Below, piece by piece: positions 7,168-57,690 of a DNA stretch of 64,000 nucleotides. Numbering within the stretch: position 1 is the stretch's first letter; each line of letters begins with the position of its first letter. Under the pieces are notes generated by a model. The model saw nothing but the letters and a program-made list of their open reading frames with translations, did no database searches and was not told the origin of the DNA. Where the stretch lies: the NCBI GenBank assembly GCA_018267955.1, contig JAFDXL010000009.1:186001-250000 (forward strand), given 5' to 3'. This stretch comes from Bacteroidota bacterium. GTDB taxonomy: Bacteria; Bacteroidota; Bacteroidia; Chitinophagales; Chitinophagaceae. A program made the translations under genes and the position numbers.

Positions 7168-7998
7168 ATGAGACGGATTTCATATTTGATCGTTCTGCCT
7201 GCGTTATCGTTTATTGTGAATACTGCTAATGCGCAATTTGCGGAAGAGGTACGTGCTTTGCGGCCCGGGCAAAGTGTTACACCGCGTACAGTAGGTGAAA
7301 GTTGTTTTCAACTGGGTGTTACGGGCGAAACAGGCTGGTCAGAGAAAAGCGACGATGCTGTAGATTCCTACAATAAATATCAGTCGGCAACAGGCTATCT
7401 GTACTTCGGTATTTCTCACAGGTTAGATGTGCAGGCACTGGGTGGTATGCGCAACGATAAATTCCTGGTCAATGGTGTCGATTCTAGGGTATCTGGCTGG
7501 AACCTGGCTGCCGTCGGTTTAAAGTATAATATCTTCAATACCACGTCAAACAATTTTGCATTGGGCCTGCAGGCGCTTGCTAAGATCCCCAACATATCTT
7601 CTGATTACCCGGCAGATAAAGTGGCACCTCGTGTATCATTACTGGCAGAGTATAACCCGGCCGGGCAGGTTTCATTATTGGCAAATGTGGGTATAGATTA
7701 TGATGGTGTCAGTAATGATCCCAAAGGTATATATGGTTTCCAATCGGCCTTTATGCTCAACGACTGGCTGGGTAGTTTTATAGAAACCTACGGTACCTAT
7801 CAATACCGTGTTTTCTATAACCATATTGATCTGGGTGTTTTTGCGCATGTAGCGCATCATTTTATGATACATGCATCCTGCGGCATGGGTGTCATTGGCA
7901 ATAGGCAGGATGAGGGCTTTTTTGCCGCCGGCCTCGCTTATCGCTTCTCCACCATCAGCAACCGCCACAGGTGGATATATGGCGAATACAAGGATTAA
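7168..7998 (+). CDS. Outer-membrane beta-barrel, MetA-pathway/transporter-like
   Basis: A 276-residue protein with a signal peptide (NTANAQ, cleavage near residue 22). The body shows repeated amphipathic strands with Gly and aromatic residues and an N-terminal RPGQSVTPRTV segment as in the 'transporter, MetA-pathway of phenol degradation' superfamily; the name of that family does not imply phenol metabolism here. Its last 4 bases overlap the convergent metallopeptidase gene. Confidence 0.75.
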   Translation: MRRISYLIVLPALSFIVNTANAQFAEEVRALRPGQSVTPRTVGESCFQLGVTGETGWSEKSDDAVDSYNKYQSATGYLYFGISHRLDVQALGGMRNDKFLVNGVDSRVSGWNLAAVGLKYNIFNTTSNNFALGLQALAKIPNISSDYPADKVAPRVSLLAEYNPAGQVSLLANVGIDYDGVSNDPKGIYGFQSAFMLNDWLGSFIETYGTYQYRVFYNHIDLGVFAHVAHHFMIHASCGMGVIGNRQDEGFFAAGLAYRFSTISNRHRWIYGEYKD

Positions 7999-8846
7999 AG
8001 GTCTTCGGCATCAAAGGTATTTCCCTGCCTGATATCGCCTGTTTCATAGCCTTTTTTAAACCACTTCATCCGTTGGGCCGATGTGCCATGTGTAAATGCA
8101 TCAGGTACAATATATCCCTGCGATTGCTTTTGCAGCCTGTCGTCGCCAATTGCCTGGGCTGCATTTAGTGCCTCATCAATATCCCCCGGTTGTACAATTC
8201 CTTTTGTCTCTGTGTAGTGTGCCCATACGCCGGCATAAAAATCTGCCTGCAATTCCAGTCGCACAGATAACTGGTTATACTCTTTTTCACTTAGCCTGCT
8301 GCGAAGCTGTTGCATTTGCTCTGATACGCCCAGGAGGTTTTGTACATGATGTCCTACTTCATGCGCCACTACGTACGCCATGGTGAAATCCCCCGGGGCA
8401 TGAAACCTGTTTTTTAGTTCATCATAGAACGATAAGTCTATATAAACTTTTTCATCTGCAGGGCAGTAAAAAGGGCCCATGCTGGCTACCGCATTACCGC
8501 ATGCAGATTCCACGGGATTATTAAACAGGGCTAACTTCGGCTTTTGATAAGTTTTACCCATCTTCCGGAATATATCTGTCCACACATCTTCGGTCTCTGC
8601 AAGCACTACGCTTACAAAATGGTGCGCTTCGCTTTCTGATTGTGTTTCCTGGTACGGTTCATCCTGGGTGGCTTTAGGCATAGTAGGACTTTCCTGCAAT
8701 ACCTGGCCGGGGTCGCCACCAAGGAAATACACAATAATAGCGATGATAATGGTACCGATACCTCCGCCGATCACCTTGCCGCCACTGCCGCCACTGCCAC
8801 GCAGGTCTTCTACATTATCGCTTTCTCTTCTGCCTTTCCAGAGCAT
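7995..8846 (-). CDS. Neutral zinc metallopeptidase, YpfJ/KPN_02809 family
   Basis: A 283-residue protein with an N-terminal Gly/Arg-rich cytoplasmic tail (MLWKGRRESDNVEDLRG), one membrane segment at about residues 30-43 and a periplasmic catalytic domain. The zinc site HEVGH is at residues 162-166. Length, the acidic N-terminal motif and the single anchor all fit the family. Its substrate is unknown. It converges on the gene at 7168, overlapping by 4 bp. Confidence 0.92.
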   Translation of the reverse strand: MLWKGRRESDNVEDLRGSGGSGGKVIGGGIGTIIIAIIVYFLGGDPGQVLQESPTMPKATQDEPYQETQSESEAHHFVSVVLAETEDVWTDIFRKMGKTYQKPKLALFNNPVESACGNAVASMGPFYCPADEKVYIDLSFYDELKNRFHAPGDFTMAYVVAHEVGHHVQNLLGVSEQMQQLRSRLSEKEYNQLSVRLELQADFYAGVWAHYTETKGIVQPGDIDEALNAAQAIGDDRLQKQSQGYIVPDAFTHGTSAQRMKWFKKGYETGDIRQGNTFDAEDL

Positions 8847-8926: not shown

Positions 8927-9481
8927 ATGAGTTTTAACGGCGATGTATATATGCAGTCCGAATTACCTAAAGTGAAGACCATAAAGCCTACGGGTTTTAA
9001 AAAGTACTTCAACAGCTTTGCCAATAAGGTAACAACAGCTACAGGTAGTCCCTGGGCATTTATTCTTGCTTTGATTACTGTTATACTTTGGGCAGTGACA
9101 GGACCTGTTTTCAAGTTTTCAGAAACCTGGCAACTGGTCATTAATACAGGTACTACTATTGTTACTTTCTTAATGGTATTTGTGATACAGCATGCGCAAA
9201 ATAAAGATACGGTCGCCTTGCATCTTAAGATGAACGAGCTGATAGCATCTACGCAACACGCCAGCAACAGGCTTATTAATATTGAAGACTTAACGGAAGA
9301 AGAGCTAATTACGCTAAAGCAATTTTACATCAAATTATCCGAGCTGTCCAAAAAGAATAACGACCTGTTTTCTACGCACTCTCTCGACGAGGCTGAAGAT
9401 AACAACGAAGAGAAAGCAGGTCATTATAATACCCGAAGGACGAGTAGAGCACCCAAACCTACTGGTTCAGATAACAGCTAG
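8927..9481 (+). CDS. Low-affinity iron permease family membrane protein
   Basis: A 184-residue protein whose residues about 18-105 match the Fet4-like/low-affinity iron permease domain (FNSFANKVTTATGSPWAF, two membrane segments, then VIQHAQNKDTVALHLKMNEL). The C-terminal 50 residues are charged and low in complexity. Bacterial members are about this size and their transport role is poorly tested. The ATG at 8927 is used; one at 8951 is possible. The 3' end overlaps the convergent lipoprotein gene by 23 bp. Confidence 0.88.
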   Translation: MSFNGDVYMQSELPKVKTIKPTGFKKYFNSFANKVTTATGSPWAFILALITVILWAVTGPVFKFSETWQLVINTGTTIVTFLMVFVIQHAQNKDTVALHLKMNELIASTQHASNRLINIEDLTEEELITLKQFYIKLSELSKKNNDLFSTHSLDEAEDNNEEKAGHYNTRRTSRAPKPTGSDNS

Positions 9482-47969: not shown

Positions 47970-49796
47970 CTATGGTTTTGGAACCTGTATAGTAACTACT
48001 GTTCCTTTGCCGGGAGAAGAGTCCCATTCTACCGTTCCTTTAAGATATTCTACCCGGGTGCGGATGTTTTGTAAACCTATGCCGTCGTATTTGGATCTGT
48101 CCCGGGTATTAAATCCCTGCCCATTATCTTCGATGGTGACACTGATACCATCCTCGTCTTTTATAAGGGAAATATCTAATTGGTTAGCTCCTGAGTGTTT
48201 GATCACATTATTGACGCATTCCTGTATCACCCGGTAAAGAACGGACTCTGTATTCCCTTCCATGCGGTCGTTAATACCCTCGGTAAAGAGGTTTACCTGC
48301 AGCACCCGGTGATCTATCTTATCAATAAACTCGCGAATGGCAGATGCCAGTCCTGCCTTCAGCAACGCATTAGGCATAATGTTATGTGATACGGTTCGTA
48401 CCTCCTTGCAGCCTTCATCTACCAAAGCCATTACCTTATCGAATGACTGCTTTTGCTGTTCGTCAGTAAAAGGCAGTTCATTACCTATGACAGATAGATT
48501 GAGCCGGGCAGCGCTCATCAACTGGCCCACGCCATCGTGCAAGTCGCCGGCAATACGTTTACGTTCCTTCTCCTCTGCATCAATAACGGCCTTGGTAGCG
48601 AGCTCCTGCTGACGGATGATCTCTTTTTGTAATACAGATTGTTGCTTTAACCTGTAACGGCGATAAGAGGATAGGCCTAATAGCAAGCCTAAGGCCATTA
48701 AGCCGCTAACACCACCTATGATATAGTTTTTACGAGTAATGTCTGCCTGCTGCAGTGCTATCTTTTGCTCCTTCTTGCTGGTTTCATACTTTGTCTGTAG
48801 TTCTGATAGCTGCTGCTGGGTATCCTCATTGAGAATGGAATCCTTAATAGCCATGGATAAACGTTGCAGTTCGAGCGCGTGTGGATAGTTATGTCTTTTC
48901 TCTTCTAAAACCGCCCAGCGATAAGTGATATCTACACGTTCGCGCCTCAGATTTTCTTTGATAGCTATGCGGTCGGCAGAATCCATGTACAAGGCAGCCT
49001 CGTCTGCTTTTCCTAAAATATCCAAGGCTTCCGCTATATGAAAGTAGGAGGCAGTCATGCCATAGAAATCTTCATTTTGTTTATCATAGCCCAAGCAGCG
49101 TTTAAATATCTGTAGCGCCTCCGGTACACGTCTAGTATTCATATAGCAATCGCCAATATTTGTGAGCAGGGTAGCAAGCAAATCGGGCTCCTGTAGTTTT
49201 TCCGCCACTGCGAGTCCGCGGTCAAGATTGACTGTAACAGAATCCCACATTGCTTTTTCTTCGTAAATGGTACCGATATTGTTATAAGTATTTGCAAGTG
49301 CGCGGGCGTTGTTTAGCTTTTGAGCGAGAGCGTTCGATTTTTTATAATACATCAGCGCCTCATCCCAGCGTTTCATTTTTTTGTACACGATGCCGATGTC
49401 ATTATAAGAACTTAGGAGGCCCTTTTCGTCATGAAATTTTTCTTTTATATCCTTGCCTTTTAGGTGATAATCCAGCGCCTTGGCATAGTTTCCTTTGTTC
49501 TTCTCGATGACACCCAGTATGCCATAATCTTCTGCCAGGTATATAGGCTTATTATATTTTCGGGCATAAGGCATAGAACGCTGCGCATACATGCCCGAGG
49601 AGTCTGTAGATATATGCAGATATTCTTTAGCCAGGCGATAATAGAGGTAGGGGAGGCCACTATCTGGAACCGGCTGTTTCAATACTGTTAAAATGCTATC
49701 TATGATGCGGCGTTGCGCAAATGTTTTTTGAGGGCTGCATACTTGTAGTAACAATAGAAGTAGGGGCATATAATGCCTGGTGCTGAGACGTAACAT
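47970..49796 (-). CDS. TPR sensor histidine kinase (HisKA_3, NarX/DesK-like)
   Basis: A 608-residue protein with a signal peptide, a periplasmic TPR domain over residues about 50-330 (repeats such as ARALANTYNNIGTIYEEKA), one membrane segment near 350-368 (YIIGGVSGLMALGLLLGLS), and a HisKA_3 dimerisation box ERKRIAGDLHDGVGQLMSA with the phosphoacceptor His, then an ATPase domain (SVTIEDNGQGFNTRD, GIGLQNIRTRVEYL). Such kinases partner with NarL-type regulators, but none is adjacent here. Confidence 0.92.
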   Translation of the reverse strand: MLRLSTRHYMPLLLLLLQVCSPQKTFAQRRIIDSILTVLKQPVPDSGLPYLYYRLAKEYLHISTDSSGMYAQRSMPYARKYNKPIYLAEDYGILGVIEKNKGNYAKALDYHLKGKDIKEKFHDEKGLLSSYNDIGIVYKKMKRWDEALMYYKKSNALAQKLNNARALANTYNNIGTIYEEKAMWDSVTVNLDRGLAVAEKLQEPDLLATLLTNIGDCYMNTRRVPEALQIFKRCLGYDKQNEDFYGMTASYFHIAEALDILGKADEAALYMDSADRIAIKENLRRERVDITYRWAVLEEKRHNYPHALELQRLSMAIKDSILNEDTQQQLSELQTKYETSKKEQKIALQQADITRKNYIIGGVSGLMALGLLLGLSSYRRYRLKQQSVLQKEIIRQQELATKAVIDAEEKERKRIAGDLHDGVGQLMSAARLNLSVIGNELPFTDEQQKQSFDKVMALVDEGCKEVRTVSHNIMPNALLKAGLASAIREFIDKIDHRVLQVNLFTEGINDRMEGNTESVLYRVIQECVNNVIKHSGANQLDISLIKDEDGISVTIEDNGQGFNTRDRSKYDGIGLQNIRTRVEYLKGTVEWDSSPGKGTVVTIQVPKP

Positions 49797-50087
49797 ATAA
49801 GGGGCAATGTTTTACGTTGAACGATTTTTCGAATATAAAAAATCTGTTTTTTATTGTCTAACAAGCGTCAAAAATTTCTTAGAAATGTCATAAAATTTTA
49901 ATAAAAAAAATTTGCTAATGAGTGAGTTTAGACTTAGATTTACATACATACACAGACGGCGTTTGGGATAGATAAGAATAAGGGATAAGAACAAATCACA
50001 TACAGTTTTATTGCTATTAGTGAATCATAGTTTATGTGTATGAATATTACTATTCGATTACAACAAACTATAAAAAACTTTCCTGTT

Positions 50088-50381
50088 ATGAAGAGCTACC
50101 AAAACAAATTGGACAGATTTCGCAGTATTGCGAAGAAACTGGTGGATGAGCATTCTGCTGAATACTTCAGCAACCAGCAGGTCTATAACGATCTTGGAGT
50201 GGATGATACCAGCGCGGCTTATAAAAGCCACCTGGATAGCTTAAGCAAACAACTGGAAGAGCAGGCGCAGTACTTTATGATGACGGCACGTGCCGGTGCA
50301 GAAGCAATTAAGCAGGAGATATCGGGGCTTTGCCGTAAATACATGGACCAATTTGCACAAAGAAACCAGCCAACTTATTAA
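50088..50381 (+). CDS. Small hypothetical helical protein
   Basis: A 97-residue protein from ATG 50088 (MKSYQNKLDRFRSIAKK); the frame extends to ATG 50034 and 50040, but those 16-18 residues look unrelated to the helical body. The rest is amphipathic helix (SHLDSLSKQLEEQAQYFMM). No family recognised. It has a clean terminator downstream. Confidence 0.6.
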   Translation: MKSYQNKLDRFRSIAKKLVDEHSAEYFSNQQVYNDLGVDDTSAAYKSHLDSLSKQLEEQAQYFMMTARAGAEAIKQEISGLCRKYMDQFAQRNQPTY

Positions 50382-50444
50382 AGACGCTTATATACCACAC
50401 ACCACGGAAGCAGCAAGCTCAACCACAAACGAATAAACAATATT

Positions 50445-50473
50445 AAAGGGCTATACGGATTGTATAGCCCTTT
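50445..50473. terminator. Strong bidirectional terminator
   Basis: AAAGGGCTATAC and GTATAGCCCTTT form a perfect 12-bp stem with loop GGATT, between the convergent gene at 50088 and lepB at 50495. Confidence 0.9.
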
Positions 50474-50494
50474 GTCATACGCACCCGTGCGCAA

Positions 50495-51688
50495 TTAGTT
50501 TTCTAAAGCATGTATGCCTCTTAGCAGGCGTTTCCAGCGCATATCGGTGAACATGCCGCCATCTCCATAACTGAACCAAACCATCCAGGCCTTGCCCACC
50601 ACGTGGTCTTCCGGTACAAAACCCCAATAACGGCTGTCTAAGGAGTTATCGCGGTTATCGCCCATCATAAAGTAATAGTTCATCTTAAAGGTGTAAGTAT
50701 TTGTTTCTGTATTGTTTATAGATATTTTACCATCCTTTTCTGCAAGCGTATTACCCTCGTAACTGGCAATGATGCGGCGATAAAGAGCTATATTCTGTGG
50801 GGTGAGCGTTATGGTTGTTCCGGCTTTTGGGATGGTAAGCGGACCGTAATTATCGCGGTTCCATTTGTAGTGGACTGTATCTAACGGGAAAACCCAATTA
50901 GCAGGTTGCTGCGGAGCCTGACCTTTATTTTCTGTTAAATAAACATTTGCAGACAACACATTGCCAGCATGTTGTACTTCTGATACCTGATCTTTCTCCA
51001 GGTTGTATATATAGGTGCTATTGTTGATCATTTTCAGTAATTCGAGGTCGTCATCTACCATTGGTGCCCTGCCGTTGGTGACTACCAGGTAGTTTTTCTT
51101 TGTATGCGGATAATCTGTTTCCGGCTGGCCATTAATGTATACCCGTGCATCTTTGATCTCCAGCACATCGCCCGGAACAGCCACACAACGTTTGATGAGG
51201 TTCTCTTTTTTATCTACCGGATGTGTAACAATGGTATAATTGCTTAATATGACATCACGCCCATAAGCACGGCAAGTCTGGTAGTAATTCAGCTCGGGGT
51301 TCTCCGCAATAGCAGTGTCTCCATCAGGTCCGTTGAATACTACCACATCATTGCGCTGTACAGATCCGAAACCAGGCAGGCGATGATAACCCCATTGCAC
51401 CGCATCGGTATAAGATTTACCACCTATCAGCGGCAGGGTATTGTGTACAAATGGAACTGCAAGGGGTGTATTGGGAATGCGCGGCCCATAGGCCAGCTTG
51501 CTGACGAATAGGTGATCGTTGATGAGCATACTGCCCTCCATAGAACCGGAGGGGATGGCGTAGGCCTCTAATATAAAGGTGCGCAGCAGGGTGGCAGCGA
51601 TCACTGCAAACAGCCCGGCATCGAGCCATTCGCGCAGCAGGGATTTCTTTTTCCGTTCTTCTTTGGGTTTCTTTTTGCGAAAAAACAT
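50495..51688 (-). CDS. lepB: Signal peptidase I
   Basis: A 397-residue Sec signal peptidase with an N-terminal membrane anchor (residues about 22-42), the catalytic serine in AYAIPSGSMEGSM near residue 50, the catalytic lysine in KENLIKRCVAVPGD near 163, and the terminal GDNRDNSLDSRYWGFVPEDH box. It is longer than E. coli LepB, with an insertion at about residues 210-310 as in other Bacteroidota. It releases Sec-exported proteins in the inner membrane. Confidence 0.96.
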   Translation of the reverse strand: MFFRKKKPKEERKKKSLLREWLDAGLFAVIAATLLRTFILEAYAIPSGSMEGSMLINDHLFVSKLAYGPRIPNTPLAVPFVHNTLPLIGGKSYTDAVQWGYHRLPGFGSVQRNDVVVFNGPDGDTAIAENPELNYYQTCRAYGRDVILSNYTIVTHPVDKKENLIKRCVAVPGDVLEIKDARVYINGQPETDYPHTKKNYLVVTNGRAPMVDDDLELLKMINNSTYIYNLEKDQVSEVQHAGNVLSANVYLTENKGQAPQQPANWVFPLDTVHYKWNRDNYGPLTIPKAGTTITLTPQNIALYRRIIASYEGNTLAEKDGKISINNTETNTYTFKMNYYFMMGDNRDNSLDSRYWGFVPEDHVVGKAWMVWFSYGDGGMFTDMRWKRLLRGIHALEN

Positions 51689-51796
51689 AGTTGTACTATT
51701 GATATAATACTATTAGTAGAAAAAATCATTATTTAATCACATCACGGTGCTATGATTCTACAATAAGATTTCTTAAATTGGTATAAAGCTTATTTT

Positions 51797-51988
51797 ATGG
51801 CAAGGTTTATAAAAATTCCTAATACAGAAGAGTATCTGAATGTGGATGCTATAGCAACAGTGAAGGCTTATAAGACCCGCCATTTAGTGGGCACTATGAT
51901 ACAACTGATAGGCCAGGAAGAACCCATCGTAACTGAATATCCATTTGAAGATTTCCTGGAAATGATTGGCGTGTTCCAGCATCACTAA
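51797..51988 (+). CDS. Small hypothetical protein
   Basis: A 63-residue protein (MARFIKIPNTEEYLNVDAIA) with an N-terminal beta-strand pattern and no signal or membrane segment. It has a good ATG and a reasonable AT-rich leader. No family recognised; the function is unknown. Confidence 0.55.
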   Translation: MARFIKIPNTEEYLNVDAIATVKAYKTRHLVGTMIQLIGQEEPIVTEYPFEDFLEMIGVFQHH

Positions 51989-52094: not shown

Positions 52095-52223
52095 ATGCTA
52101 CAAATTGATTTTGATCCCTTTCCCATACTTACTACCGAACGACTGGTACTGCGACCGCTGAAAATTACTGATGCTGAAGAGATATTATTACAAGGAGGTG
52201 GCAGGGAGATAGGGTTGCTGTAG
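52095..52223 (+). pseudogene. Truncated GNAT acetyltransferase (N-terminal fragment)
   Basis: An ATG opens 42 residues, MLQIDFDPFPILTTERLVLR then PLKITDAEEIL, the characteristic N-terminus of RimJ/RimL-type GNAT acetyltransferases. It stops at 52221-52223; the acetyl-CoA-binding core is missing downstream. The break coincides with the left copy of a 27-bp direct repeat, so an insertion or recombination event probably destroyed the gene. Confidence 0.72.
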
Positions 52224-52240
52224 TTATTATCGCAAACCCC
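52214..52240. repeat. Left copy of 27-bp direct repeat flanking the PKD gene
   Basis: Shares GTTGCTGTA and TATTATCGCAAA with 53383-53409 in the same orientation, with about four mismatches in 27 nt. It contains the stop of the truncated GNAT frame. Confidence 0.65.
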
Positions 52241-52303: not shown

Positions 52304-53236
52304 ATGAACTCTAAATATATATACCTCTTAGTGATTGCTTTGTATGCCACAATCAATACTAGTTGCCATAAAAAACATAATAATACTACACCTTCAACAA
52401 ACAGTACACCTTCATTTGATTTCAATTGGTCGGCATTTCCGGTATCTATATCTATTATAGATTTCAACAGTACTATTACCGATACGGTGAATAATACTTT
52501 TCGCTGGGATTTTGGTGATGGCAAGATGTCCACAGAGGCGAGGCCGCAACATTATTTTGGTAGTACAGGCAGCTACCAGGTAAGCCTTACCATCAACGGC
52601 GATTTTGACCATAAACTAACCAAAACCGTAGAAGTAAAATACCCAGTAAGATATAAAGGCACAGGTACCATGGTGGAAGGGGATACCGTTTATTTTACAC
52701 AAGATGCCGATCCTGGAAATACCTTTGTGTGGAATTTTGGTGATGGCACCACTTCTACAGAATGGAGTCCCAAACACATTTATAAGAAAGCAGGTACATA
52801 TAATACAAGCCTGCGGGTGAATGATAAATATGATGCATATATCGCATCATACTATAGCAATACAATGGTGATATTCAAAGATCCTCAAATAGCTGCCGTT
52901 ACAGGTAACAGGAGCTGGGATTTTATAGAACGGTACCAGGATCTACAGTTAGGTGTTGATTCAACCAGTTCGTTGCAAGGGGAGCAAATAACTATTAAGT
53001 ATATTGATAAGGTTACGGTTTATTGGCCGGGAAGCAAATTCTCTATGGGCGATGACCTGCGGTACGATAATACGCAGTCAAAAAATAACCTGCTTGTTTT
53101 TGTATCAAAAAGTAATGAACGCCTGGTTTATGACCGGGTGGCAGATACAATGCACTTCACATATATTCATGGTTATGTTGGTGGCCAGGGTGTGCCCGCA
53201 AATATTAAAATATCTGCAAATGGCACCACTAAATGA
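52304..53236 (+). CDS. PKD-domain lipoprotein
   Basis: A 310-residue protein from ATG 52304, with a lipoprotein signal (YATINTSC, Cys21). Two PKD domains of beta-sandwich type are visible: FRWDFGDGKMSTEARPQH followed by GSYQVSLTI, and FVWNFGDGTTSTEWSPKH followed by GTYNTSLRV. The C-terminal 120 residues are an all-beta domain of unknown type. PKD domains mediate binding on the cell surface. The frame extends to 52274 but the lipobox decides the start. Flanked by direct repeats. Confidence 0.85.
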   Translation: MNSKYIYLLVIALYATINTSCHKKHNNTTPSTNSTPSFDFNWSAFPVSISIIDFNSTITDTVNNTFRWDFGDGKMSTEARPQHYFGSTGSYQVSLTINGDFDHKLTKTVEVKYPVRYKGTGTMVEGDTVYFTQDADPGNTFVWNFGDGTTSTEWSPKHIYKKAGTYNTSLRVNDKYDAYIASYYSNTMVIFKDPQIAAVTGNRSWDFIERYQDLQLGVDSTSSLQGEQITIKYIDKVTVYWPGSKFSMGDDLRYDNTQSKNNLLVFVSKSNERLVYDRVADTMHFTYIHGYVGGQGVPANIKISANGTTK

Positions 53237-53382
53237 TTCTATACTAACATTATCTTTTCTCGTTTTGCCGGGATATTCAAAGATATAGAGTTTGCCTTTA
53301 GTTGGCGCAAGTATGCGACATGGGTTAGTGGGTAGGGCTTGTATTATTGGCTATTTTTCGATAGAATAGTTAACGTGATAAT

Positions 53383-53409
53383 GTTGCTGTACCTATTATC
53401 GCAAATCCG
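53383..53409. repeat. Right copy of 27-bp direct repeat flanking the PKD gene
   Basis: Same words as 52214-52240 (GTTGCTGTA, TATTATCGCAAA), running into the family 2 palindrome copy 3 at 53401-53418. Confidence 0.65.
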
Positions 53410-53418
53410 GAGATTTGC
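53401..53418. repeat. REP-like palindrome, family 2 copy 3, with an adjacent second hairpin
   Basis: GCAAATC and GATTTGC around CGGA; 12 nt later a second hairpin CGTAGTC/GACTACG (53431-53447) follows, a pairing of two stems typical of REP-type elements. Confidence 0.65.
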
Positions 53419-53464
53419 TACTTTGTATGACGTAGTCGGAGACTACGCCGAGCGGGCGAGAGAT

Positions 53465-53474
53465 GTTAGCCGCC
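53465..53474. repeat. Left arm of inverted repeat around the 211-residue membrane gene
   Basis: GTTAGCCGCC, exactly complementary in opposite orientation to 54120-54129. It covers the stop codon of the gene at 53466. Confidence 0.6.
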
Positions 53475-54101
53475 GTTAGGGGTAATAGCTTTGTGCGTAT
53501 TCATAGTAGTAGAGACAAAGTTTACAACCATATGTCTTGCCCTGTTCCAAAACACAAAAGTAAAAAGCAAACTAAGCCAAAAGTCAAACCATCTAAAGTG
53601 ATATAAAACAAATAATAGCCAACAAAACGAAACTAAGGTTAAGCCTTTGAACAAATCATTCATCAAATTCCAGTATTCGGCTTTTTCAAACTTTCCATCA
53701 TATTGAAGTCGACTGACTTTAACCCAGAACTCGTTCGGAATAATGCCTTTTTTGTTAAGCATACCGGTTACTCTATATCCGTTTAAAATGAGGACTAGGA
53801 AATTTACAATCCATAGTACTTTAAACTTTTTTAATTTAGTCGAATAGCTTGACTTTAAATCCCAGAAATACCGGCCAAGTTTAAATAACACCAAATCTAA
53901 CCCGTGTATGAAATGTCCAATAAGGTAGAGTCCAGGCAAAAGTAAAAATATAACCAATGCTTCATTATCTTTTATGTCTGACTTTTCAATATTGAAGAAC
54001 TTAAGAAGAGTATTATCAAACGTTCGGAGAAGAACAAGAAGAAAAAAGAGCCCGGTTGCGAAATACACCAAGAAGTCTCGTAATGTGAATTTGTCTTCCA
54101 T
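53466..54101 (-). CDS. Hypothetical membrane protein bracketed by inverted repeats
   Basis: A 211-residue protein with four to five hydrophobic segments (FLVYFATGLFFLLVLLRTF near residue 10, ALVIFLLLPGLYLIGHFI, VLWIVNFLVLIL, LVSFCWLLFVLYHF, FWLSLLFTFVFW). Arrangement and basic/aromatic loops resemble no family I know. Codon use is markedly AT-rich. The gene is framed by GTTAGCCGCC/GGCGGCTAAC at 53465 and 54120, suggesting acquisition as a unit. Confidence 0.7.
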   Translation of the reverse strand: MEDKFTLRDFLVYFATGLFFLLVLLRTFDNTLLKFFNIEKSDIKDNEALVIFLLLPGLYLIGHFIHGLDLVLFKLGRYFWDLKSSYSTKLKKFKVLWIVNFLVLILNGYRVTGMLNKKGIIPNEFWVKVSRLQYDGKFEKAEYWNLMNDLFKGLTLVSFCWLLFVLYHFRWFDFWLSLLFTFVFWNRARHMVVNFVSTTMNTHKAITPNGG

Positions 54102-54119
54102 TTAGTGATTGTTGATTGT

Positions 54120-54129
54120 GGCGGCTAAC
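54120..54129. repeat. Right arm of inverted repeat around the 211-residue membrane gene
   Basis: GGCGGCTAAC, perfect reverse complement of 53465-53474, 18 bp before the start codon of that gene. Confidence 0.6.
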
Positions 54130-54345
54130 TCTTAAATATACACATGTCCAACAAAAAATCAAATACAAGCTTTAGAAAGTGCCCTCTGACAATCAAGAGG
54201 TATTAAGCTATTTCAATGGGGAATGCGTATTGTGTATTTTGCATTGAAACTACTAAATCACTATCTCATCAATACAAAATGTGCAATAGTATATCCTGAT
54301 TGCTTGAAGCAAGTTACTGTTCTGCTGGTTACCATTCTAATACCA

Positions 54346-54420
54346 TGTGATCTGGATTGGATTCGAACCGATGACCCTTAGATCTTAGCAACATGTAGTA
54401 ACATATGCTACCCTTAAAAA
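54346..54420. repeat. tRNA-like direct repeat, copy A (75 bp)
   Basis: On the minus strand it contains a T-arm (GGTTCGAATCC) with an imperfect stem, followed by an acceptor-like CCAGATCACA. About 89 percent identical over its first 44 nt to 55853-55926, in the same orientation. No tRNA 5' half is next to it. Confidence 0.7.
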
Positions 54421-54547
54421 TTATTTGATATAACATACATAATAAAAGTATCTTTTATATTCGTATAACACACCTCTTTAAGCAGATTTGTTAAACAAGG
54501 AAATCAAAAGTCGTGTGTAATTAACCATTCAACTTCATACCCAGCTT

Positions 54548-55747
54548 ATGTCGACTGAAAAGGACTTTTTGCAATGGCTTACCCAAAAAAACAAACTTTA
54601 TCACAGATTTAATGAACTGGCAAATATATTTGAGAATTTTCTAACAGACTATATCTTAGTTTCTAAGGAAAATGCTGACGAGATTTCCGTTCGCTTAGAG
54701 GATATGTTAGGTAAATGTAATATTCCAAATATATACGAGAAAGGTCAGGCAGTTGAAACATATTCAATGTTGCATTTTCTAGAACGCTATCGTCGATATC
54801 AGCTTGTTTATTTGCAACTTTTGGAAAATCAATTAATTCCTTTTGCGACACTAATAAAACATTTAGATATTGGCACTGGACCAGCCCCTTCAATATTTGC
54901 ATTTTCAGATATTATTAAATTTTACAAAGAATTTTCTCAAAAAGAAGAACCTCGAGAATTTTTTGAAATTGAATATTTACCAGATTATGTCGAAAACAGC
55001 GATAGTTTCAGAAACTGGCTTCATCATTTTACTGAATATGCTAATTACAAAAACTATTCTGGCGGATGGGAAGTCCCTTATCATCACGGTACTTTTCGAG
55101 ATTTTGAAAGTTTAGATTTTAAAAAACTCAATTATAATAAAGCTCTTTGGCAAAAAGAAAGGGTTTACGAAGCCTTTGGCGCGAATCCCAATTATATCAT
55201 ACTCGAAACATCAAAAGAAATAACGGTTCATGGTCGAAATTTTATTTCAGGTCAGCTATTGGATAAAAAGAAAAATGGACATCGCTACGACGTTATCTCA
55301 TTTTCCTATTTTCTAACACTTCTCGAGCAAACAAAACAATTTAAAAAACAAATCAAAGGTTGCGCATTCGCTCTTAGAAATAATGGCATTATTATTAATA
55401 TTGGCTCTAACAACGATGACTATTTCCAAATCGCAAAATACATTCGGAGAACAATACAACGCTATAAATCTGTAAACAAAGAATTTAATGTAAGTTGTCG
55501 TGAGGTATTAAATGAAATAATATCATACAATACTCATGATGTTTTTAGTAAACGAATAAAGCAATCATATGAATTTATTATAAATAATTTGGAACTCCTC
55601 TCTGAAAAACAAAAAATTCCTCAGAAAATAAAGAAAGATTTTGATAAGTATATTAACTCAGGACAAGAAGAAAACATAAAAGATTTTAGACTACAGGTTT
55701 TTCAAAAAAGAATAACGTCAACAAACAATGATCAGCATACTGGTTAG
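54548..55747 (+). CDS. Putative class I SAM-dependent methyltransferase, AT-rich cargo
   Basis: A 399-residue protein. The segment LIKHLDIGTGPAPSIFAF (residues about 103-120) fits motif I of class I methyltransferases, and RYDVISFSYFLTLLEQ (about 246-261) followed by LRNNGIIINIGSN fits motifs IV-VI. The N-terminal 90 residues (FNELANIFENFLTDYILVSK) and the C-terminal 120 are helical and unlike known enzymes; distant similarity to Rsm22-like proteins is possible. The gene is much more AT-rich than the surroundings and sits between two tRNA-like repeats, so it looks acquired. Confidence 0.7.
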   Translation: MSTEKDFLQWLTQKNKLYHRFNELANIFENFLTDYILVSKENADEISVRLEDMLGKCNIPNIYEKGQAVETYSMLHFLERYRRYQLVYLQLLENQLIPFATLIKHLDIGTGPAPSIFAFSDIIKFYKEFSQKEEPREFFEIEYLPDYVENSDSFRNWLHHFTEYANYKNYSGGWEVPYHHGTFRDFESLDFKKLNYNKALWQKERVYEAFGANPNYIILETSKEITVHGRNFISGQLLDKKKNGHRYDVISFSYFLTLLEQTKQFKKQIKGCAFALRNNGIIINIGSNNDDYFQIAKYIRRTIQRYKSVNKEFNVSCREVLNEIISYNTHDVFSKRIKQSYEFIINNLELLSEKQKIPQKIKKDFDKYINSGQEENIKDFRLQVFQKRITSTNNDQHTG

Positions 55748-55821
55748 ACATACTAAAACTTGATTGTATTCGAATCAATTCAAATTGAAAATCAAATCGT
55801 CAGAAATCAGAGATAATATTA

Positions 55822-55845
55822 AAAGCCACTGAAATCAGTGGCTTT
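55822..55845. terminator. Rho-independent terminator of the methyltransferase gene
   Basis: AAAGCCACTGA and TCAGTGGCTTT, perfect 11-bp stem with a 2-nt loop and flanking A/T runs, so it could act in both directions. Confidence 0.85.
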
Positions 55846-55852
55846 CATATTT

Positions 55853-55926
55853 TGTGATTTGTATTGGATTCGAACCAATGAACCTTAGATATTAGCGAAC
55901 ATATGGTACATACCCACCCTTAAAAA
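55853..55926. repeat. tRNA-like direct repeat, copy B (74 bp)
   Basis: On the minus strand it contains a perfect T-arm (ATTGG, TTCGAAT loop, CCAAT) followed by ACAAATCACA as an acceptor-like 3' end. It matches copy A (54346-54420); the pair lies 1507 bp apart and brackets a single gene. Confidence 0.72.
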
Positions 55927-56195
55927 CTTCCCCCTCCCGCAGCTGATAAGCTGCAAAGGCGATAGCCGTTTTACTTGGATGAAGTTTCTTTTTTAAGATC
56001 TTTCTTTATACCTTATTGTATACCTTTATTAATATCTTATTTAAGCTGCTGTAGTGTTGCGCTTAGTATCGAAATGCTTAAAGCAATAGACTGAAAATGC
56101 AGGTTGAAACGGAATGTGCTATTGCTTATTTAAGCTGTCGTTATGTGCTCTTTAGATAAGGCTGCTGGTACAAGTGTACCTCGGGCAACAATGCA

Positions 56196-56801
56196 TTATA
56201 ATTGAGTTAATAGTATCTGCAGCAAGCCTATTATAAAGCCCAGCACACCGCCGATTATCTCTACAAAGCGGAATTCTTTGCTCATGATGGCTACCAGTAT
56301 CTGCTCCAGTTTGTCTGACGAGAAATTAGCTACCTTTTCCGTCACCATCTTTTCAATATCTACTTTCTCCGCAAGGCCCTCTGTATATTTCCCAATTACC
56401 TGTGGCAGCAGTGTATTGATCTCTTCCATCATGCCTTCCTTCAGCTGGCCAATGGTTTTTTCGCCCACAAACATGGCTATCATAGGTATCTTCTCGGCAA
56501 GGCGAACCCTCAGGAAAGTATCGATATGAGTTTCTATTACCGGGCTCACCGCAGCTAACTGTTGCGGGTCTTTTAGTTTACTTGCGATCTCATCAAAATG
56601 TATCAGTTCGCTCGCCACCAACATCCCCAGCTTTTGGGCAAACTGTTGTTGCCTCTTGGGAAAGATGCCTTGTATGGTGAACCCAAGGACCTTCACCGGG
56701 TTCCTTGGGTGGAACAGCATTTTGATGGCTATCCAGTTAGTAAACCAACCAATGAAGGCCGAGATTATTGGTAATAATAAAAGCTTCAGGTCAAAATCCA
56801 T
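56196..56801 (-). CDS. DUF445-family membrane protein
   Basis: A 201-residue protein with an N-terminal membrane segment (LLLPIISAFIGWFTNWIAI), the family motif IKMLFHPRNPVKVLGF and FPKRQQQFAQKLG, and a C-terminal hydrophobic helix (GVLGFIIGLLQILLTQL). DUF445 proteins are inner-membrane proteins of unknown function. Adjacent rmlA starts 22 bp upstream, so they may be co-transcribed. Confidence 0.9.
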   Translation of the reverse strand: MDFDLKLLLLPIISAFIGWFTNWIAIKMLFHPRNPVKVLGFTIQGIFPKRQQQFAQKLGMLVASELIHFDEIASKLKDPQQLAAVSPVIETHIDTFLRVRLAEKIPMIAMFVGEKTIGQLKEGMMEEINTLLPQVIGKYTEGLAEKVDIEKMVTEKVANFSSDKLEQILVAIMSKEFRFVEIIGGVLGFIIGLLQILLTQL

Positions 56802-56823
56802 TACTAGTAAACTGTTATGTTGA

Positions 56824-57690
56824 TTATTGTTCTTTGGCTATCATGGAGAGGTAGGCACCGTATCCGCTCTTCATATATTTATCGGCAAGGCCCAGCAGTT
56901 GTTCCTTATTAATATAGCCCATGCGGTAGGCGATCTCTTCGATGCAGCCTATCTTCAATCCCTGGCGTTTTTCTATTACTTCTATGAAGTTGCCTGCTTC
57001 CTGCAGGGAATCAAAAGTACCTGTATCGAGCCAGGCGGTTCCCCTGTCGAGCACGCCTACTTCCAGCTTACCTTTTTGCAGGTATATCTTATTCACATCG
57101 GTGATCTCCAGTTCGCCGCGCGGAGATGGTTTCATCGCCTTAGAAATAGCTACCACCTCGTTATCATAAAAATATAAACCCGGCACCGCGTAGTGCGATT
57201 TTGGCTTTTCCGGTTTTTCCTCGATGCTGAGCACCCTGAACTCCTTATCAAATTCTACCACGCCATATCTTTCGGGATCGTGCACCTGGTACGCAAATAC
57301 TACGGCGCCATCGGGATTCACTTTTTTCTGTAACAAAGTGCCCATGCCGGAGCCATAAAATATATTGTCGCCCAATACCAGGGCTACACTATCGCTACCT
57401 ATAAATTCCTCACCCAGGATAAATGCCTGTGCCAGTCCTTCCGGCTTTGGCTGTACTACATATTCAAACCGGCAACCGATCTGGCTGCCATCACCCAGCA
57501 GCTTTTTAAAACCTGCCTGGTCTTCCGGTGTAGTTATGATCAGTATCTCGCGGATGCCTGCCAGCATCAGGGTAGACAAAGGATAATAGATCATTGGTTT
57601 GTCGTACACCGGCATTAGCTGCTTGCTTACAGCTATAGTAAGTGGATACAGGCGTGTACCGGATCCACCGGCAAGGATGATTCCTTTCAT
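56824..57690 (-). CDS. rmlA: Glucose-1-phosphate thymidylyltransferase
   Basis: A 288-residue nucleotidyltransferase that makes dTDP-glucose from dTTP and glucose-1-phosphate, the first step to dTDP-rhamnose and related sugars. The nucleotide-binding loop [11 protein letters not shown] is at residues 8-18, with [12 protein letters not shown] near 31 and the [11 protein letters not shown] segment near 105. Length is normal. The gene is 6 bp downstream of rmlB. Confidence 0.96.

Follow-up and report, generated by a model that had tools for sequence, protein, structure and literature searches.

We report a 1.5-kb stretch of this Bacteroidota genome that is probably a gene cassette without an integrase of its own, one of a family of CIME-like satellites, each with a single gene or a small number of genes, that a tyrosine integrase working in trans would have set at mimics of the tRNA-Arg 3' end; the present unit would be an old and diverged member. 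The window, by which we mean the whole 64,000-nt stretch analysed (C10:186001-250000 of a 4.18-Mb genome in 10 contigs), contains two direct repeats that we read as putative right-end, attachment-like sites mimicking the T-arm and acceptor of tRNA-Arg(TCT). Together with a terminator/T-arm-like module beside copy 2, these repeats would bound a cassette with one gene and no recombinase. Judged from sequence, the carriers of the cassette family are Chitinophagaceae and bacteria related to them, and Mucilaginibacter has sites that are similar.

The initial annotation had described two tRNA-like direct repeats of 75 nt bracketing a single gene, and its particulars were reproduced throughout. The starts of the repeats lie 1507 bp apart, positions 54346-54389 match 55853-55896 at 89% identity (44 nt), and a gapped alignment of the two copies gives 84% over 76 columns (E 2.7e-14). 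Both copies run in the same orientation and carry GGTTCGAATCC on the minus strand, where each reads as a T-arm followed by an acceptor-like tail at its end. With the shorter ORFs inside it treated as spurious, the 399-aa gene stands alone between the copies, and the annotation was equally right that no integrase is found there. It was right, too, that no intact tRNA adjoins them, ARAGORN and Rfam at its gathering score finding no tRNA in the window; a whole tRNA at the repeats, intact or degenerate, was likewise rejected, a permissive Rfam scan of 53200-56200 giving weak unrelated matches only. The features are collected in Table 1.

Table 1. Features of the proposed cassette and its neighbour (positions within the window)
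Feature	Position	Strand	Remarks
211-aa orphan gene	53466..54101	-	possibly cargo of next cassette; own right-end site not recognised
Promoter-like leader of 211-aa gene, TATATTTAAGAGTTAGCCGCC	54120..54140	-	a related motif, TATATTTGAGAGTTGGCGGC, stands before the 346/363-aa cassette gene of G010
Copy 1	54346..54420	-	putative right-end (attachment-like) site of 399-aa cassette; core GGTTCGAATCCAATCCAGATCAC; tRNA-Arg(TCT) 3'-end mimic
Proposed single-gene cassette, 1,507 bp	54347..55853	- (tRNA sense)	from just behind copy 2 TCAC to copy 1 TCAC
399-aa orphan gene, putative cassette cargo	54548..55747	+	sole gene between repeats; no relative found
Putative left-end module, type LE2, of 399-aa cassette	55737..55851	-	terminator hairpin, then T-arm-like motif TTGATTCGAATACAATC; overlaps last codons of gene
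Bidirectional terminator-like hairpin AAAGCCACTGA..TCAGTGGCTTT	55820..55847		directly behind copy 2 TCAC
Copy 2	55852..55926	-	core GGTTCGAATCCAATACAAATCAC; counterpart at orthologous place in G010 is L061 12330-12352

When copy 1 was searched against the whole genome its best match was copy 2 (E 2.7e-14), and further matches were the 3' end of tRNA-Arg(TCT) at C10:380403-380442 (88%, E 8.5e-8) and a place at C1:45973 (E 4.4e-5), so that the similarity between the repeats lies above chance. The annotation had proposed a search for a complete matching tRNA elsewhere in the genome, and this tRNA-Arg(TCT), which occupies C10:380368-380442, ends in GGTTCGAATCCAATCCGGATCAC and lies 138 kb from the repeats with a tyrosine integrase just behind it, answers the description; the 23-nt core of copy 1 differs from it by one mismatch.

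Beyond what the annotation described, positions 55737-55853 hold a terminator-like hairpin and a second T-arm-like motif, and no terminator-like site was found behind copy 1. An nhmmer model built from one left end each of two relatives (G010 and G005) and run over the fetched loci matches the window at 55851-55737 (E 9e-6); the limits proposed for the cassette rest on this match, on the spacing of the repeats and on the TCAC-to-TCAC units with an HbpS-like gene found in relatives. The right boundary of the unit would be the TCAC of copy 2, or alternatively the place where homology to G010 stops, at the T-arm-like motif of 55757-55780. The two left ends behind the model share a module about 380 nt long, 64% identical across 379 aligned columns, and the proteins encoded behind them give no blastp match to each other. 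At E 1e-5 or better, all ten distinct matches near the start of the model lie directly behind TCAC, counting the two from which it was built, the window itself and one behind the tRNA-Arg of G011; at E 0.1 the figure is 15 of 25, the ten misses being short (28-52 positions) and for the most part hits to the opposite strand of the hairpin, which is palindromic. The matches in the window and behind the G011 tRNA-Arg tie the unit to insertion at tRNA-Arg. Its tie to the family through the right ends appears weaker than through the left end: the 28-nt right-end model searched in the window alone finds the two copies as its best, weak matches (E 0.04 and 0.7), and searched over all loci it does not match the window at E 0.5.

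The closest relative, G010, is 87% identical to the window over 48001-51969 and 86% over 55821-57690, with short matches only between. In place of the 399-aa gene it carries three others (186, 152, and 363 or 346 aa), with more genes to their left, separated by a hairpin and GTGA-N6-TTGGA-(1 or 6 nt)-TCGAACC, and the right-most of these sites is orthologous to copy 2. Five further genomes of the genus (G002, G004, G006, G007 and G008) match the locus on its DUF445 side only and lack these sites. The annotation held that its reading would suffer from many copies scattered without genes, or from a repeat absent as a unit from relatives; what we see is few copies, and in G010 the counterpart of the right-hand repeat, in orthologous position and next to different genes. 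The 399-aa gene itself has no relative anywhere we searched.

That gene is an orphan by every measure applied. Its product has no match in Pfam, PADLOC or NCBIfam at E 1, its best PHROG match is at E 0.15, and nothing among solved structures compares with it by sequence below E 0.05; a tblastn-type search found no relative of the gene in 98 other genomes, plasmids or phages, nor did a seed search, which reaches close relatives only, in viral or genome contigs. The structure predicted from the single sequence has a mean pLDDT of 38 and is unusable. A methyltransferase-like stretch, DIGTGPAPS, noticed by eye, is backed by no profile and was set aside, and a role for the orphan cargo in defence or competition would be a guess. 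GTTAGCCGCC, which brackets the neighbouring 211-aa gene, was considered as an integron box and rejected: among 59 genomes the leader pattern is present a single time in each of G000 (the genome described here), G010 and G023, and we therefore read GTTAGCCGCC as part of a promoter-like leader. A longer alignment of the leaders of the 211-aa gene and the G010 gene is weak, its score being reached by 5 of 300 shuffles. Separately, dispersed intergenic repeats (GATAATGTTGCTGTACCTATTATCGCAAA; CGTAGTCGGAGACTACGCCGAGCGG) are common to the window (53298-53405 and 52205-52237) and to locus L061 of G010 (7262-7402, 8079-8159 and 8991-9061).

The family as such, its junctions and the order of its arrays can be seen directly in the genomes compared, as can loci that are differently occupied, one cassette in several places and one left end with different genes. 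Its sites follow, in the sense of the tRNA, the pattern GGTTCGA-(1 or 6 nt)-TCCAA-N6-TCAC. A loose pattern for the site matched 65 times, in 38 of the 59 relatives and often at tRNA-Arg itself, against 7 for a reversed control; the 28-nt form, in which the T-loop is five bases longer than in the tRNA, was present in 16 of 294 family genomes and absent from the control. A narrower 28-nt pattern was found in 30 stretches of genome contigs, and the titles of contigs with 28-nt sites name Chitinophagaceae, Flavipsychrobacter, Paraflavitalea and Mucilaginibacter. We gathered 41 distinct 28-nt sites, many of them solitary in intergenic spaces near the 3' ends of genes. Two that fall within ORFs (L174, the one hit among viral contigs, and L165) were dropped as chance, leaving 39, some of which overlap short ORF calls. 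Of these 39 right-end sites, 36 have a hairpin of -9 kcal/mol or lower within the 50 nt after TCAC; neither of the dropped two does, making 36 of 41 in all, and the figure for control stretches is 20 of 115.

Neighbouring 28-nt sites within 15 kb of each other, entered by hand from the site listings, are arranged head to tail in 7/7 pairs from six genomes. With the G118 and G276 pairs left out, a single gene lies between the sites in three units of G010, in the window unit, in the HbpS unit and in the second unit of G056; there are two genes in the first G056 unit and five or more in G005, and one pair in G103 is only 146 bp apart. The genome described here has a second array (L097, G000:C10:603000-621000) with sites at C10:608542, 612449 and 615925 and with two and three ORFs between them; tyrosine recombinase matches lie at 594314 and 635067.

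The HbpS-like unit recurs in four further genomes (L107/L157, L109/L150, L161 and L170). All six pairwise comparisons give 598-781 nt at 97.8-99.2% identity, ending at TCAC with an offset of 0, and beyond TCAC none of the six gives a match at E 1e-8. In L150 and L161 the left end of the unit directly follows an intact tRNA-Arg(TCT), in L170 it follows another site, and L157 holds the unit without its left end. An 82% copy, in which PF03928 is recognised, lies behind a cassette right end in the G010 array, and the unit is absent from the plasmids searched. G056 likewise has two units behind tRNA-Arg; a site closes each of them, that of the second unit with one mismatch.

As for a likely source of the integrase, a tyrosine integrase at C10:380601-381914, in which PF00589, SAM-like and arm-binding domains are recognised, lies about 160 bp behind the tRNA-Arg(TCT) of the genome itself, and 56 kb beyond that tRNA its end recurs as a 21-nt copy accompanied by a terminator. 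We infer that the two delimit one element, at both ends of which are arm-like repeats AATCGAGCAATTAATCGAGCAA. Also behind this tRNA (L198, G000:C10:380000-396000, and L303) are Type I restriction-modification genes and a gene for an AAA/AbiEii-like ATPase. Compared with the 21-nt repeat of this resident element, copy 1 has one base different and copy 2 three; arm repeats of its type are absent from 53-57 kb of the window, which counts against this particular integrase as the mover of the unit. Relatives of the resident integrase at E 1e-60 amount to 28 copies in 19 of 147 family genomes (its own included), 11 of them behind intact tRNAs (3 Arg-TCT, 4 Asp and 4 Cys). A pair of candidate tyrosine recombinases adjoins the G005 site. 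In L111/L145 a left end with integrase fragments stands behind a 28-nt right-end site, so that one kind of site serves integrase elements and cassettes alike; left ends resembling it follow tRNA-Arg in L198 (355 nt, 68%) and in L210 (155 nt, 81%).

Turnover at the 3' end is not special to tRNA-Arg. Among 20 orthologous tRNA pairs of G002 and G006, chosen from 29 and 33 tRNA matches, synteny is lost directly at the tRNA 3' end in 8, tRNA-Arg included, and two more keep part of it (L246-L285). Behind nine other tRNAs in these genomes (17 loci of 9-16 kb) there is no mimic of the same tRNA, save one plain exact repeat 15 kb off (L295).

A mechanism consistent with these observations would run as follows. 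In the sense of the tRNA, a unit would open with a terminator hairpin and left-end module, continue with its gene or few genes, which may face either way, and close with a right-end site whose last bases are TCAC. Insertion of a further cassette would take place immediately after the TCAC of tRNA-Arg or of a right end already present, and arrays would presumably grow head to tail in this manner. We infer that an element targeting tRNA-Arg supplies the tyrosine integrase, which acts in trans via a circular form, with the crossover within the tRNA-like core that ends in TCAC, and that some cassettes may be mobile at present; the terminators may insulate neighbouring cassettes from each other. 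The window unit looks old and may no longer be mobile. Counted against this reading are the 16% divergence of the two copies, the missing terminator-like site behind copy 1, the many solitary right-end sites, and the fact that the 399-aa unit is unseen elsewhere, no relative of its gene having been found. The weak matches of the right-end model in the window count against it too, as do the between-site stretches with several genes, the left-end matches away from TCAC at E 0.1, the L157 unit without its left end and the loss of synteny at tRNAs other than tRNA-Arg.

The annotation itself had named as explanations a satellite element, or a decayed island, flanked by tRNA 3'-end repeats, and alternatively a dispersed family of tRNA-derived repeats. 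Its satellite idea is largely right, strengthened by the match to tRNA-Arg, the differently occupied G010 locus and the like units behind intact tRNA-Arg; the units may, as it also proposed, be mobilised in trans. Of the repeat family, what stands is the existence of the 41 distinct 28-nt sites, many solitary near gene 3' ends. One could suppose that these are 3'-UTR- or terminator-linked repeats without site-specific mobility, between which genes are swapped by homologous recombination; the hairpin that follows 36 of 39 sites would suit this, as would the fact that synteny breaks are common at tRNA 3' ends generally. We nevertheless think it unlikely, for in all four genomes the HbpS unit stops precisely at TCAC, the DNA that follows being unrelated, and in two of the four it lies directly behind intact tRNA-Arg, while one left-end module accompanies different genes and has its good matches behind TCAC.

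Alternatively, the unit might be what is left of one or more larger integrative elements at tRNA-Arg that lost the integrase and most cargo, its one-gene size being an accident of deletion. Integrase genes do adjoin the same tRNA-Arg end, one of them in this genome with a repeat 56 kb off, and the repeat match at C1:45974 adjoins another integrase; the copies in the window are diverged, and several between-site stretches hold two to five genes. Against this, one-gene units with both ends recur (three in G010, the second of G056, and the HbpS unit in L150, L161 and L170), and we regard an origin by deletion as quite improbable. Still harder to credit are cassettes of an unrecognised integron with attC-like sites and an IntI-type recombinase. 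Orphan genes do stand head to tail in tandem units with one direction of insertion (the G010 array; 7/7 pairs), and imperfect palindromes surround some junctions; however, no integrase passes the TIGR02249 cut-off in any of 15 genus genomes, the place of entry is a tRNA gene, and the core ends in TCAC without GTTRRRY. In the genome described here none of the 13 TIGR02249 matches listed falls within the window, and the 41 sites, themselves chosen by the pattern GGTTCGA-N6-TCCAA-N6-TCAC, showed by eye none of the RYYYAAC/GTTRRRY boxes of attC as these are generally known. A bolder variant of the preferred cassette reading is a dedicated integron-like system of Bacteroidota, with entry at tRNA-Arg(TCT), tRNA-mimic right ends, terminator-bearing (and in some cases promoter-bearing) left ends and a specific tyrosine recombinase family that carries genes, singly or a few together, from genus to genus between the tRNA and secondary arrays; we hold this to be possible but rather doubtful, given that several between-site stretches contain more than one gene.

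The family would belong with the elements that are anchored at tRNAs and lack an integrase (CIMEs), as a new form of them that behaves like a gene-cassette array without being an integron. As in CIMEs, the repeats derive from the target of integration, matching the tRNA-Arg(TCT) 3' end, and the window unit lacks recombinase and transfer genes of its own, its one gene having no such profile match; an autonomous tRNA-targeting element would have an integrase between its repeats, where the 399-aa gene alone is found. Tandem accretion is shared with the ssrA islands of Dehalococcoides, which are reported to lie in tandem at one RNA gene, with a copy of its 3' end as the limit of each, 16 having an integration module and 15 lacking one, the latter perhaps moved with their neighbours (PMC3146451). 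The integrases seen here are tyrosine and not serine recombinases, and the present cassettes differ further in often having one gene with a shared terminator-bearing left end, in the five extra T-loop nucleotides that most sites have relative to the tRNA, and in the many sites away from that tRNA. Use of the tRNA 3' end with a displaced fragment at the far end is likewise a trait of tRNA-targeting ICEs, IMEs and genomic islands (Islander, PMC4383910); unlike these, the window unit is 1.5 kb and without integrase.

Integron cassettes are mostly orphan genes arranged head to tail, each having a recombination-like site at one of its ends, and in these respects the units described here are alike. 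They are unlike in that no IntI passes the cut-off, no attC core motif is present and tRNA-Arg takes the place of attI, and also in their terminators in the left ends, their genes in both orientations and their sometimes several genes per unit. Tycheposons are tRNA-anchored carriers of cargo as well, larger than the cassettes here, and are not known to form arrays of one-gene units with tRNA-mimic ends such as these. In the literature searched, mostly at the level of listings and abstracts, the cassette system is undescribed.

Gene-by-gene capture is known mainly from integrons, and the cassettes may be a route by which these bacteria swap one or a few genes at a time. A second capture system, if true, this one based on imitation of a tRNA 3' end, would help to explain how orphan genes enter the genomes of environmental Bacteroidota and would provide a short sequence pattern for cataloguing such cassettes. 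Some of the lone tRNA 3' fragments in bacterial genomes may then be cassette ends, not scars.

Two minor observations were made along the way. Antisense to the right-end sites runs an ORF of 20-25 codons that starts at the GTG of GTGAACC and reads V-N-x-I-G-x-F-S-N-Q.., and it is conserved in a codon-like manner, its pairwise differences at codon positions 1:2:3 being 3311:2511:3904 (permutation p about 0.005; 35 non-redundant sites). We do not claim a peptide encoded there, since one frame of the other strand is also open in 34/35 and the open frames listed were of at most 72 aa. The other observation concerns tandem copies of tRNA-Arg(TCT) in three genera, L208 (G003), L214 (G021) and L217 (G208), between which lie ORFs of 83-86 aa. 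No description of such an arrangement was found in the literature searched. Those tested (G003 and G021) match the GIY-YIG nuclease family (PF01541), and in G003 and G208 a palindrome of about 20 nt (CCTGCCTGCC..GGCAGGCAGG type) is inserted in the upstream tRNA copy; the GIY-YIG ORF with its tRNA copy looks like a homing-type element that carries a copy of the tRNA.
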